From positions 1 through 54,649 of the forward strand of contig CACIBQ010000002.1 in the NCBI GenBank assembly GCA_902584915.1: a stretch of 54,649 bases of DNA. The letters are read 5' to 3'. Below, one piece after another: positions 16,667 through 24,046 of this stretch. A program made the position numbers and the translations under genes. This stretch comes from an uncultured Pelagibacteraceae bacterium (lineage in GTDB: Bacteria; Pseudomonadota; Alphaproteobacteria; Pelagibacterales; Pelagibacteraceae). Position 1 is the first letter of the stretch, and every line of letters begins with the position of its first letter. The notes beneath the pieces are model-generated. The model saw nothing but the letters and a program-made list of their open reading frames with translations. It was not told the origin of the DNA and ran no database searches.

Positions 16667-17944
16667 TTAGAACTGTTCAGATTCTGTTGAGTCTTTCATT
16701 GCTGTAGTTGAGCTTTTTCCTGAACTTATTGTATTAGATACAGCATCAAAGTAGGATGTTCCAACTTCTCTTTGATGTTTAACGCTTGTGTAACCATCTT
16801 TTTCTCTAGCAAATTCATTTTGTTGAATTTTTGAATACGCAGTCATTCCTTCTTTTTTATATTTTTCTGCTAATTCAAAGATTGCGATATTTTGTGTATG
16901 AAAACCAGCTAAAGTTATAAATTGAAATTTATAACCCATTTCACTAATTTTTTTTTGGAATTGTGCAATTTCGTCATCTGATAAATGTTTTTTCCAATTA
17001 AATGATGGAGAACAATTATATGCTAAAAGTTTTCCTGGAAATTTCTCATGAATTGCATCAGCAAACTTTTTAGCTTCTTCTAAGTTTGGAGTTGCAGTTT
17101 CACACCAAATCAAATCTGCATAAGGAGCATAGGCTAACCCTCTTGATATTGCTTGTTCAATACCATCTTTAACATAAAAGAAACCTTCTGGGGAACGCTC
17201 ACCTGTTAAAAAAGATTTATCATTTTCATCAAAGTCATTTGTAATAAGTTTTGCTGCGTTTGCATCAGTTCTTGCGAGAATAATAAGGGGAACATCCGCA
17301 ATATCTGATGCAAGTCTAGCAGCTTTTAAATTCCTAACCATTGTGCTTGTTGGAACTAAAACTTTACCACCCATGTGACCACATTTTTTTTCACTAGCTA
17401 ATTGATCTTCAAAGTGAACGCCTGCAGCACCTGCTCTAATAAATTTTTTTGTTAATTCAAATACGTTTAGAGGTCCACCAAAACCTGCTTCTCCATCAGC
17501 AATAATTGGTAACATGTAATCGGTTTTATCTTTTTCTTTCATTTGACCATCTGTTAATTCCATATGCTGTATTTGATCTGCTCTTATTAATGCATTATTC
17601 ATTGCTTCAACTAATTTTGGAGCACTATCATATGGATACAATGATTGATCTGGATACATCTCGCCAGCACTGTTTGCATCTGCTGCAACTTGCCAACCGC
17701 TAAGATAAATGGCTTTTAAACCAGCTTTAGCATGTTGGACAGCTTGATTGCCAGATAAAGAACCCAGAGTATTAATGTAAGGCTCAGTATTTAATAAAGT
17801 CCAAAGTTTTTCTGACTGTTGTTTAGCAATTGAATATTCAATTTTAATTGACCCTTTTAATCGCTCAACTTCTTCTTGTGTATAATCTCTTTTAATTCCT
17901 GCAAATCTTTTTAATTTAAATGATACGTTGCCCTCTGCTGACAT
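16667..17944 (-). CDS. aceA: Isocitrate lyase
   Basis: A 425-residue isocitrate lyase, which splits isocitrate to succinate and glyoxylate in the glyoxylate shunt. The catalytic signature KKCGHMGGK has C188; [35 protein letters not shown] and the C-terminal [24 protein letters not shown] are all conserved. The family length is about 430, so it is complete. A 53-codon ORF precedes it by 37 bp, and a divergent ScfR-type regulator with an array of TTTACAA boxes lies upstream, pointing to control by short-chain acyl or acetate status. Malate synthase is not in the window. Confidence 0.97.
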
Positions 17945-17981: not shown

Positions 17982-18143
17982 TTATGAGTTTTTTGTCTGA
18001 TCGCTGTTCTCGACTGAAATATCTTCCATTCCACTTGAACCCCAATCACAATGATCATCTCTTAAATAAATACCACGAGATCTATGCTCTTTTATGTCTT
18101 GCTCAGTTATTTGATTATGTGTATTTTTATTTAAATCACTCAT
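17982..18143 (-). CDS. 53-residue hypothetical protein upstream of aceA
   Basis: An ATG at 18143 opens 53 codons ending at TAA 17982, just before aceA and on its strand. The product is hydrophilic (starts MSDLNKNTHNQITEQD, then RSRGIYLRDDHCDWGSSGMEDIS) with no membrane segment. It carries a single Cys and Trp in a DDHCDWGSS segment. The composition is richer in G+C-containing codons than the surrounding spacer, which favours a real gene. The Shine-Dalgarno signal is weak. It would be co-transcribed with aceA and controlled by the operator array just upstream. Confidence 0.5.
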   Translation of the reverse strand: MSDLNKNTHNQITEQDIKEHRSRGIYLRDDHCDWGSSGMEDISVENSDQTKNS

Positions 18144-18156
18144 ATTCACTATATAA

Positions 18157-18245
18157 TTTACAACATTTACAAAATCTATAAAATTTTCAAAAATGCTTGT
18201 AAAACAACATAATTTATTGTAAATAATAATTTACAAACTTTACAA
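18157..18245. promoter_or_regulatory. Array of six TTTACAA boxes, probable ScfR/RamB operator
   Basis: TTTACAA or its complement TTGTAAA occurs at 18157-18163, 18166-18172, 18197-18203, 18217-18223, 18230-18236 and 18239-18245. Two pairs are direct repeats with a 9-bp period. The pair at 18217-18236 forms the perfect palindrome TTGTAAAT-AATA-ATTTACAA. The array fills the space between the aceA leader gene and the regulator start. RamB of actinobacteria binds related TTTGCAAA-type boxes, so autoregulation plus aceA control is likely. Confidence 0.75.
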
Positions 18246-18253
18246 ATGGTAAA

Positions 18254-19678
18254 ATGAGTCAATTAGATACAAGAATTGGTCCAAAAATAAAGGCTTTTAG
18301 ACGACAATTAGGTATACAGGCCAATAAATTAGCTGAACAATTAAATATTTCACCAAGCTATTTAACATTAATTGAGGGTGGAAAAAGAAAAATTGATGCC
18401 GATTTATTAATAAAAATTTGTGAAGAATTAAAAATAGAACTATCTGATTTAACAACAAAAGCTGATCTTAATTTAGAAAACAATATTTCAGAACTATTGG
18501 ATGATCAATTATTTGAAGATCTGGACATAGTTGGACCAGAAGTAAGAGATCTTGTAAATACGAATCCTAAAATTGCAAGAGCATTGATTAAGCTGGGAGA
18601 TAATTATAAAAAAAAAGATCAAGAAATAGTTTCAAAAGTTGAAAATTTATCTGGAAAAATTATTGATAGTAGAAAAGCGGCATTCCCTGGAGAAGTAATT
18701 TCAGATTTTTTACAAGAGAATAAAAATTATTTTCCAAAATTGGAAGAATTCGCAAACACAATTTTTGATAAAGTTAAACAAAATAATAGAACTAGATATA
18801 TATCCTTATGTAATTTTTTAAAATCTGAATATAATATTATCGTAAAAGATATAATTCCAGATGAAGGTAGGCCATTTTCTAAAATTTATAAAAGTAAAAA
18901 AAAAGAATTGTTACTTTCTGATTACCTTTCATTAGAAACAAAAAAACTTTATGCTGCAGCTCAAATTGCTCAAGAAGGTGCTTCAAAAGATATAGATAAA
19001 TATCTATCATCTTTTAATTTTCCATCTTCTGAATCAAAAAAATTAACTAAAGTTGCATTATTGAATTACTCTGGCGCTGCAATATTAATGCCTTACAAAT
19101 TATTTCATGCTGAATGTAAAGAATTAAAATATGATCTTGAACTTTTGCAAAATACTTTTGCAACATCTTTTGAACAAGTTGCTCATAGAGTGACGTGTCT
19201 TCAGGATCCTAAATTGCCTGGTATTCCTTTTCATTTTTTAAGAGTTGATGTTGCGGGAAATATTTCAAAAAGATTTTCATTATCAGGTATTGAAATTCCA
19301 AGATATGGTGGAGCTTGCCCAAGGTGGAATGTTTATTCTGCATTCTCAAGACCCGGTGTAATTCAAGCTGCTGTAAGTAAAATGTCTAATGGTGAAAAAT
19401 ATGTTTGTATTGCTAAAACTGTTGAAAAAGGAGTTGGAAGATATGGACAAAAGAAAAGTATTTTATCTATTGGACTTGGCTGCCAAGCAAAATATGCAAA
19501 AGATTTTATATATACAGAAAACTTAGATATTAATGATAAAAAATCAGAACTTCCAATAGGTGTTTCTTGTAGAACTTGCGATCGACTAGATTGTTCTCAA
19601 AGAGCATTTCCACCTCTTCATAAAAAATTTGACGTAGATATCAATAATAGAGGTGTTTCTGTTTACGTAAATGAATAA
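18254..19678 (+). CDS. ramB: XRE-type regulator of the RamB/ScfR short-chain acyl family
   Basis: A 474-residue regulator. An N-terminal helix-turn-helix (about 11-66; LAEQLNISPSYLTLIEGGKRKI) is followed by a long helical middle, an IrrE/peptidase-like region around AQIAQEG to CKELKYDL, and a C-terminal DUF2083-type part ending GVSCRTCDRLDCSQRAFPP (C439, C442, C447). This architecture is that of RamB/ScfR regulators, which sense propionyl- or other short acyl-CoA status and control aceA. It is divergent from aceA and overlaps the operator array with its 5' end. Confidence 0.85.
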   Translation: MSQLDTRIGPKIKAFRRQLGIQANKLAEQLNISPSYLTLIEGGKRKIDADLLIKICEELKIELSDLTTKADLNLENNISELLDDQLFEDLDIVGPEVRDLVNTNPKIARALIKLGDNYKKKDQEIVSKVENLSGKIIDSRKAAFPGEVISDFLQENKNYFPKLEEFANTIFDKVKQNNRTRYISLCNFLKSEYNIIVKDIIPDEGRPFSKIYKSKKKELLLSDYLSLETKKLYAAAQIAQEGASKDIDKYLSSFNFPSSESKKLTKVALLNYSGAAILMPYKLFHAECKELKYDLELLQNTFATSFEQVAHRVTCLQDPKLPGIPFHFLRVDVAGNISKRFSLSGIEIPRYGGACPRWNVYSAFSRPGVIQAAVSKMSNGEKYVCIAKTVEKGVGRYGQKKSILSIGLGCQAKYAKDFIYTENLDINDKKSELPIGVSCRTCDRLDCSQRAFPPLHKKFDVDINNRGVSVYVNE

Positions 19679-22090: not shown

Positions 22091-24046
22091 ATGAAAAAAC
22101 TTTGGTCTGCCAGTAATTCACAAATAAAAAATTCTAATCTTGCAAATTACGAAGATTATATAAACTTAAAATTCAATCAAAGGTTCAAAAGGAAATATAG
22201 TAATATTTTATCTTGGAGTATTAAAAATTCAGGTAAATTTTGGGAATCTATTTGGGATTACTGCAAAGTTAAAGGTGCCAAAGGCAATATTAATATAAAA
22301 AAATCAAAAACATTTTATAAAAACCACTTTCTTTCTGATTATAAATTAAATTTCGCTGAAAATTTATTATCTAAAAATGATAATTCTAAAGCAATAACCT
22401 TTGTTAGTGAGAATGGTTATAAGGAAAAAAGGTCTTGGAAAGAGTTAAATATTAATACGAATAAAATTATTAGTTTTTTAAAATCAAACAAAATAAAGAG
22501 CGGCGACCGAGTTGCAGCTTATCTTCCAAATATCATTGAAACTGTAGAATACTTTATCGGTGCTAGTGCAATTGGAGCAATTTGGTCATCTTGTTCTCCT
22601 GATTTTGGAGTTAAAGGCGTTATTGAAAGGTTTGCACAAATTAAACCTAAGATTCTAGTTATCTCAGATAGATACTATTATAATGGAAAAGAAATCAATG
22701 TAATTGAAAGACTTCCTGAAATTGTAAAGAAAATTAAATCTATAAAAAAAGTTGTAGTTTTAAACTATCCTGGAAAAAAACTCACAAAATTTAAAAAAAT
22801 TAAATCTATTAAATATTTTTATTCAAAAGATATAAAAAATGTAAAAAAAACAAATCATACATTTAAAAAATTTAGTTTTAACCATCCTTTAGCTATACTT
22901 TATTCAAGTGGGACAACAGGAAAACCAAAATGTATTTGCCATAGATCTGGCGGTGTACTTCTTCAACATTTAAAAGAGCATCAATTGCATTGTGAAATAA
23001 AACCTGGTGATAATATTTTTTATTTTACAACCTGTGGCTGGATGATGTGGAATTGGCTAGTAAGTTCTCTTGCATCAAAAGCATCAATTTTTCTTTTTGA
23101 TGGTTTTCCAATGTATAAAAAAAATGACTTACTGTTTAGATTGGTAAGTAGAGAAAAAGTAAGTTTGCTAGGTGTTAGTGCAAAATATATTGATAGTTTG
23201 AAAAAATTAAATCTTAAAATTAAAAATAAATTAAATCTTAAAAACCTAAAAGTAATTTGTTCTACTGGTTCACCATTATCCAAAGAAGGTTTTGAATACA
23301 TTTATAATAAAGTTAAGAAAAATGTTCATCTAGCATCTATTTCTGGAGGAACAGATATTGTCTCGTGTTTTGTTTTAGGAAATATATATCAACCTGTTTA
23401 TTCTGGAGAAATACAAAACAATGGCCTTGGTTTAGATGTCAAAGTTTTTAGCGAAAAAGGAAAATCTAAAATTAATAAAAAGGGTGAATTAGTATGTGTA
23501 TCCCCCTTCCCTTGTGTACCTTTAAAATTTTGGAAGGATAAAAATAATAAGAAGTTTGAAAAGGCCTATTTTAAAAGATTTAAAAATACTTGGCATCATG
23601 GTGATTATGCACTCAAAACAAAAAGAGGTGGCTATATAATTTATGGTAGATCTGATGCAACATTAAATCCTGGTGGTGTACGATTAGGAACAGCTGAAAT
23701 TTACTCGGAAGTTGAGAAGTTTAAAGAGATTAAAGAGTCTATAGTGGTAGGCCAATCTTGGGATAACGACATTAGAATAATATTATTTGTAATATTAAAC
23801 AATAAATATGAACTAAATGAAGAATTAAAACTCAAAATGAAAAAACAAATTAGGTTTAATGCTTCACCTAGACATGTGCCATCTAAAATAATTCAAGTAA
23901 GCGATATTCCTAGAACTAAAAACAATAAAATAGTAGAATTAGCTGTAAAAAATATAATAGAGGGTAATCAAATTAAAAATAAAGAAGCCTTGGCAAACCC
24001 TAAAATTCTTGATGAATTTAAAAATATAAAAGAATTAAAACAGTAA
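22091..24046 (+). CDS. aacS: Acetoacetyl-CoA synthetase
   Basis: A 651-residue acyl-adenylate-forming ligase that activates acetoacetate with ATP and CoA. The N-terminal LHxWSV-like SWSIKNSGKFWESIWDYCKV is typical of acetoacetate ligases. The AMP-binding P-loop YSSGTTGKPK (about 271-280) is followed by TTCGWMMWNWL, and the adenylate motif ISGGTDI and the hinge YGRSDATLNPGGVRLGTAEIY are present. The length agrees with the family (about 650). It overlaps the aminotransferase start by 1 bp. Together with isocitrate lyase it suggests use of ketone-body or PHB-type C4 units. Confidence 0.93.
   Translation: MKKLWSASNSQIKNSNLANYEDYINLKFNQRFKRKYSNILSWSIKNSGKFWESIWDYCKVKGAKGNINIKKSKTFYKNHFLSDYKLNFAENLLSKNDNSKAITFVSENGYKEKRSWKELNINTNKIISFLKSNKIKSGDRVAAYLPNIIETVEYFIGASAIGAIWSSCSPDFGVKGVIERFAQIKPKILVISDRYYYNGKEINVIERLPEIVKKIKSIKKVVVLNYPGKKLTKFKKIKSIKYFYSKDIKNVKKTNHTFKKFSFNHPLAILYSSGTTGKPKCICHRSGGVLLQHLKEHQLHCEIKPGDNIFYFTTCGWMMWNWLVSSLASKASIFLFDGFPMYKKNDLLFRLVSREKVSLLGVSAKYIDSLKKLNLKIKNKLNLKNLKVICSTGSPLSKEGFEYIYNKVKKNVHLASISGGTDIVSCFVLGNIYQPVYSGEIQNNGLGLDVKVFSEKGKSKINKKGELVCVSPFPCVPLKFWKDKNNKKFEKAYFKRFKNTWHHGDYALKTKRGGYIIYGRSDATLNPGGVRLGTAEIYSEVEKFKEIKESIVVGQSWDNDIRIILFVILNNKYELNEELKLKMKKQIRFNASPRHVPSKIIQVSDIPRTKNNKIVELAVKNIIEGNQIKNKEALANPKILDEFKNIKELKQ

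Follow-up and report, generated by a model that had tools for sequence, protein, structure and literature searches.

An array of six TTTACAA boxes between the isocitrate lyase gene, aceA, and the gene of an ScfR-family regulator is predicted to be the shared operator of that regulator and the divergent small ORF-aceA genes, a reading to which sequence comparison lends a probability of about 0.87. In relatives the boxes are kept almost letter for letter, and they are missing or worn where the regulator is not found; thus, they are very probably the docking sites of the regulator. That this is a local switch of a known kind, not a new kind of system, is well supported. Two features are unusual here: the direct pairs of boxes stand 73-74 bp apart with inverted boxes between them, and a conserved, unannotated protein of ~50 residues is encoded beside aceA. 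SAR11 is a very abundant group in the ocean and is thought to be poor in regulators. If the host belongs to it, the array represents a precisely defined DNA switch, open to testing, at the enzyme through which the glyoxylate shunt is entered, and it ties a SAR11 motif to one that is common across the Alphaproteobacteria. Among the literature matches listed, judged by titles and the starts of abstracts, none dealt with ScfR/RamB or its sites in SAR11. According to the available part of a 2009 survey of Pelagibacter intergenic regions, some of the conserved regions may be protein-binding sites (PMC2704228); "isocitrate" and "aceA" do not occur in that part of the text. Studies of iron-limited waters have tracked how SAR11 expresses isocitrate lyase, as stated in the accessible text of one such paper (PMC6618146).

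The window is the whole stretch of DNA that was analysed, 54,649 nucleotides in length. Exact TTTACAA boxes are found six times within 89 bp (18157-18245), on the + strand at 18157, 18166, 18230 and 18239, and on the - strand at 18197 and 18217. The boxes and the genes around them are arranged as follows:

16667-17944, - strand: aceA, isocitrate lyase, 425 aa, the presumed regulated gene
17982-18143, - strand: conserved small ORF, 53 aa, between the array and aceA
18157-18172, + strand: pair A, the distal direct pair TTTACAA-N2-TTTACAA, 9-bp period, conserved in relatives
18197-18203, - strand: box B, a single inverted box (TTGTAAA on the + strand)
18217-18236: perfect 20-bp palindrome TTGTAAATAATAATTTACAA; its left arm is inverted box C' (18217-18223), its right arm the first box of pair C
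18230-18245, + strand: pair C, the proximal direct pair, 9-bp period, 73 bp from pair A
18254-19678, + strand: ScfR/RamB-like regulator, 474 aa, with helix-turn-helix, IrrE-like region and ScfRs domain

The array occupies the 110-bp gap (18144-18253; 16% G+C) between the small ORF and the regulator gene. Pair A adjoins the start of the small ORF, on the aceA side, and the regulator start codon lies 8 bp beyond the end of pair C. The first-pass annotation had placed the array between aceA and its regulator. It does lie between the two but not directly beside aceA, since the small ORF intervenes and the aceA start codon is ~210 bp away. TTTACAA is not enriched across the window (39 matches vs 37.5 expected), so the unusual feature is the clustering alone. 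In 200 third-order Markov windows the highest number of boxes per 89 bp was 3 (in 7 windows), compared with the 6 observed, and 20,000 order-1 simulations from the 110-bp gap sequence also gave a maximum of 3. The earlier observation of six boxes, two 9-bp pairs and a perfect 20-bp palindrome thus holds, and six boxes in 89 bp are far above chance in these simulations. In the contigs of the same genome (0.70 Mb, 45 contigs, 61% complete), TTTACAA-N2-TTTACAA occurs solely at pairs A and C, and the reversed control does not occur. A promoter consensus scan gave 7 matches vs 2.8 expected, too unspecific for placing start sites.

The regulator consists of an N-terminal helix-turn-helix (PF01381, 1.1e-10), an IrrE-like middle region and a C-terminal ScfRs domain with four conserved cysteines (PF09856, 1.7e-58; 197.4 bits vs a cut-off of 24). 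It matches the structures of Mycobacterium tuberculosis PrpR (3.2e-61). All the [4Fe-4S] cysteines (C-X2-C-X4-C plus a fourth) are kept: C439, C442, C447 and C355 correspond to PrpR C447, C450, C455 and C363. Three of the four basic residues that contact CoA in PrpR are identical and one is changed from K to R. The PrpR pocket residue Phe155 is aligned with Gly146 of the regulator, which suggests that the acyl group recognised may differ from that of PrpR. The score against the RamB equivalog of NCBIfam (NF038139) is 361.5 bits, below the cut-off of 700, and the identity with Paracoccus denitrificans RamB is 31%. In a tree of 60 ScfR proteins, 13 SAR11 rows (of 70) cluster with 13 others, 11 of them aceA-linked, with support 100/98. 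P. denitrificans RamB is placed in the other half, but its long branch makes this position unsure, and the tree is rooted at the midpoint only; aceA-linked regulators are present in both halves.

The small ORF is presumably the first gene of the aceA transcript. Its product of ~50 residues is unannotated, with the conserved core GIYxRDDHCDWGSSGM and no match in Pfam or NCBIfam. It was found in 67 of 197 family genomes, every one of which carries aceA; among 385 genomes of the class it gave 5 matches, 4 in the window's own family and one weak (E 0.002). The dN/dS of the core is ~0.10 over 578 pairs, a value biased low because a conserved core was chosen. On the other side of the array, counting the listed reading frames rightwards from the regulator, the third is an acetoacetate--CoA ligase gene (22091-24046, + strand).

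The 197 family genomes contain regulator matches in 75 and aceA matches in 80: 73 genomes have both, 7 have aceA only, 2 have the regulator only and 115 have neither. Many of these genomes are incomplete, so the absences are soft, and the two regulator-only genomes hold a C-terminal fragment (G188) and a weak match (G055). The locus comparison is based on 70 regulator loci including the window (L003-L072), picked by regulator similarity and sharing ancestry. Five regulator matches fall outside this set: those in G008, G130 and G188 are pieces, that in G074 is a copy at a contig edge, and that in G055 is weak. On the aceA side, G008, G130 and G074 carry 3, 4 and 6 boxes, respectively. aceA is divergent from the regulator in all 70 loci. 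Within 450 bp upstream of the regulator every locus has exact boxes, from 1 to 7, with a single one left in L056 and L071. The first-pass annotation had named a lack of conserved boxes upstream of aceA in relatives as one way to refute its idea; at least one box lies between aceA and the regulator in all 69 loci other than the window's.

The footprint comes from 39 loci, the closest ones whose regulator has a single helix-turn-helix; dereplication at 90% reduced them to 20 (window included). The mean majority frequency is 0.980 in the box columns vs 0.716 in the other columns of the array span, a difference that was reached by none of 88 circular shifts. Ten of the 39 loci have the window's exact six-box layout; the rest lack or shift 1-2 exact boxes. 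Pairs A and C are both recognisable in 42 of the 43 loci L003-L045, and their distance, start to start, is 73 bp in 34 and 74 bp in 8. This is close to seven turns of the helix, and from these distances we infer that the pairs are in phase. From pair A to box B the distance is 29-30 bp in those of L003-L045 that have both, whereas 14 loci from other genera have 39 bp, about one helix turn more. The strand of some boxes also varies between genera at similar places, and L069-L071 deviate from the common box layout.

The loci that are missing the regulator offer a natural experiment in operator decay. In three of the 7 aceA-only genomes (G082, G168 and G170) the contig ends first; G168, thus cut and with no regulator detected, still has the small ORF and boxes. 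For the remaining four (G002, G034, G050 and G108) the whole gap upstream of aceA is present in the sequence, and no intact box lies in it. These genomes are 64-86% complete, and the absence of the regulator from them is therefore not certain. In G034 (locus L076) the small ORF is present and the spacers, compared by eye, read as in its relatives, with pair A and box B altered. What seems to be left of pair A in G050 also carries changes, and the lone box near aceA in G108 sits within the neighbouring reading frame. Apparent pair A remnants, changed inside the boxes, were noted next to aceA at positions 1290-1330 of L074 and 1410-1480 of L076.

The exact motif is nearly exclusive to the region upstream of the regulator. 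The palindrome TTGTAAA-N6-TTTACAA occurs at 34 places in 61 genus genomes, all 34 of them no more than 250 bp upstream of the regulator (reversed control, 4). The exact direct pair occurs at 88 places (reversed control, 11), and 64 of these precede the regulator; they come from 40 of the 41 genomes that have the regulator N-terminus on a contig. The remaining 24 include 22 that overlap other reading frames of more than 250 bp, one that is inside the regulator gene by position, and a single intergenic one (G200:C4, in genome G200). On this distribution it looks like the regulator acts at one locus, although weak sites would escape: with two mismatches allowed, pairs in the window's own genome are no commoner than in the reversed control (110 vs 133), so degenerate scans are uninformative, and the search rules out further sites only if these are exact or strong.

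A wider regulon, which the first-pass annotation had expected a genome scan to reveal, did not emerge, as no second target came either from exact pairs and palindromes in the 61 genomes or from malate synthase in 8. Malate synthase had been suggested as one such target. In all 8 nearly complete genomes the 400 bp upstream of its gene are free of exact pairs; one lone box and one two-mismatch pair were seen, both in L141. Five of the 8 genomes (L138, L140, L141, L142 and L144) have a glycine riboswitch upstream of malate synthase, and the two enzymes of the glyoxylate shunt therefore appear to be under different controls.

The first-pass annotation had regarded the box as the motif of the SAR11 ScfR/RamB regulator, the assignment of the host to SAR11 being its own. 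The boxes do go with the regulator, but the motif also precedes homologous regulators in other Alphaproteobacteria and is therefore not specific to SAR11. A matrix of SAR11 pairs was applied to 26 loci from outside the family, the best-scoring of 100 matching genomes among the 385 of the class and so not a random sample. A good site was found upstream of the regulator in 17 (p<=0.016, the lowest possible value with 60 shuffles) and in 2 more at 0.033; the other 7 have no good match. aceA is divergent in 19 of the 26. Where the fetched locus shows no divergent aceA, good sites are present at L110, L124, L129, L133 and L134 and none at L118 and L128. L121, a locus of 64% G+C, has the exact SAR11 pair consensus upstream of its homologous regulator. 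The motif thus seems to be ancient and not to result from AT drift.

The closest characterised counterpart is RamB of P. denitrificans, likewise an ScfR protein encoded divergently from glyoxylate-cycle genes. In the accessible sections of that study, changing two boxes together abolished RamB binding, and a change in either one abolished expression on acetate (PMC10370305). The changed stretches, taken from the primers in Table 3, are TGACAAACCTTACA and TGACAATACTGACT, 14 bases each and 18 apart (Kremer et al. 2023, PMC10370305). TGACAAACCTTACA agrees with pair C at 12 of 14 bases, a match equalled at only 2 window places, pair C included, on both strands; TGACAATACTGACT agrees with pair A at 9 of 14, no better than hundreds of window places. 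The SAR11-pair matrix also finds its best site in the Paracoccus promoter at the TGACAAACCTTACA box (0 of 60 shuffles as good, z 2.6). As TGACAAACCTTACA holds two half-sites 9 bp apart, one SAR11 pair would correspond to one RamB box, and both operators are built from 14-base boxes of two such half-sites. Paracoccus box 1 ends one base from the RamB start codon, and pair C is similarly close to that of the regulator, ending 8 bp before it. The differences are in the spacing (two boxes with an 18-bp spacer in Paracoccus, pairs 73-74 bp apart with inverted boxes between them here) and in the neighbouring genes (malate synthase then isocitrate lyase in Paracoccus, the small ORF then aceA here). 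Linkage to glyoxylate genes, one mark of class 2 RamB (the P. denitrificans type), is present, and its two-box layout with an 18-bp spacer is absent.

For M. tuberculosis PrpR, the part of the paper at hand proposes a 17-bp site of two boxes with a 9-bp period: TTTGCAAA, one base, and TTTGCgAA (PMC6765138). The array has the same box period, and the two proteins are related, with the same four cluster cysteines. The first-pass annotation rightly noted a difference of one base per box from the actinobacterial form: PrpR has G at the fourth base of TTTGCAAA, where the array has A (PMC6765138). A further difference is that PrpR uses a single site, at least in the text available, and not an array. 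Another ScfR protein, PccR of Rhodobacter sphaeroides, reportedly binds paired TTTGCAAA boxes; its site is said to consist of self-palindromic boxes at 4-bp spacing, and its target to be propionyl-CoA carboxylase.

The comparison with these systems leads to a model for the switch. Each 9-bp direct pair would count as one ScfR/RamB box, with extra half-sites supplied between the pairs by the two single inverted boxes. The regulator, probably tetrameric like PrpR and P. denitrificans RamB according to published work, would bind at both ends of the gap, on the same helical face. By analogy with P. denitrificans RamB, it may sit on A and C together and respond to acyl-CoA. In the model given in the sections of the Paracoccus study seen here, the RamB tetramer represses and, with a CoA ester, a dimer activates (PMC10370305); similarly, an acyl-CoA thioester bound beside the [4Fe-4S] cluster might shift the oligomeric state of the regulator. 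aceA would be controlled from pair A and box B; pair C and the palindrome, lying tight against the regulator's start codon, would serve the control of the regulator gene itself. The position of pair C 8 bp from that codon, reminiscent of Paracoccus box 1, argues for autoregulation of the regulator gene. A more elaborate reading is possible, though we consider it rather doubtful: a streamlined lineage may have turned the ScfR operator into a one-locus switch, in which a tetramer bridges pair-sites about seven turns apart and shuts both promoters, with the ~50-residue protein part of the circuit and malate synthase left to a glycine riboswitch.

The same boxes might be bound by a different protein that controls aceA and the regulator gene, with the ScfR protein acting elsewhere. 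TTTACAA is as frequent window-wide as chance predicts, and only one of the two proven Paracoccus boxes is matched well, both of which would suit such a binder. However, the boxes go with the regulator and, where it is missing, are lost or degraded though aceA remains; pair C is similar to a proven RamB box; and of the 7 homologous regulators without a divergent aceA in the fetched locus, 5 have good sites, a sign that the sites belong with the regulator, not with aceA. A different binder is thus improbable, and an element that works as RNA, a leader structure or a riboswitch, even more so. The palindromes could form hairpins, and malate synthase has its glycine riboswitch in 5 of 8 relatives. 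Against this, a scan of the window with Rfam gave no family at its gathering score, box strand varies between genera at similar places, as is expected of protein sites, and the spacers are much less conserved than the boxes. A chance cluster, or drift in AT-rich non-coding DNA, has a negligible probability: the gap has 16% G+C and a single box is common in the window as a whole, but the simulations never exceeded 3 boxes, the box columns are far better conserved than the AT-rich spacers around them, and an exact copy of the pair consensus stands upstream of the regulator in the 64% G+C locus.

The regulator itself varies in its DNA-binding part. In four loci (L007, L021, L028 and L045) the helix-turn-helix is tandemly duplicated in one longer reading frame of 564-594 aa. 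Such tandem regulators are found in 4 of the 70 loci and in 8 of the 61 genus genomes, with G152 common to both sets. The operator layout in the four loci is the same as in their relatives.
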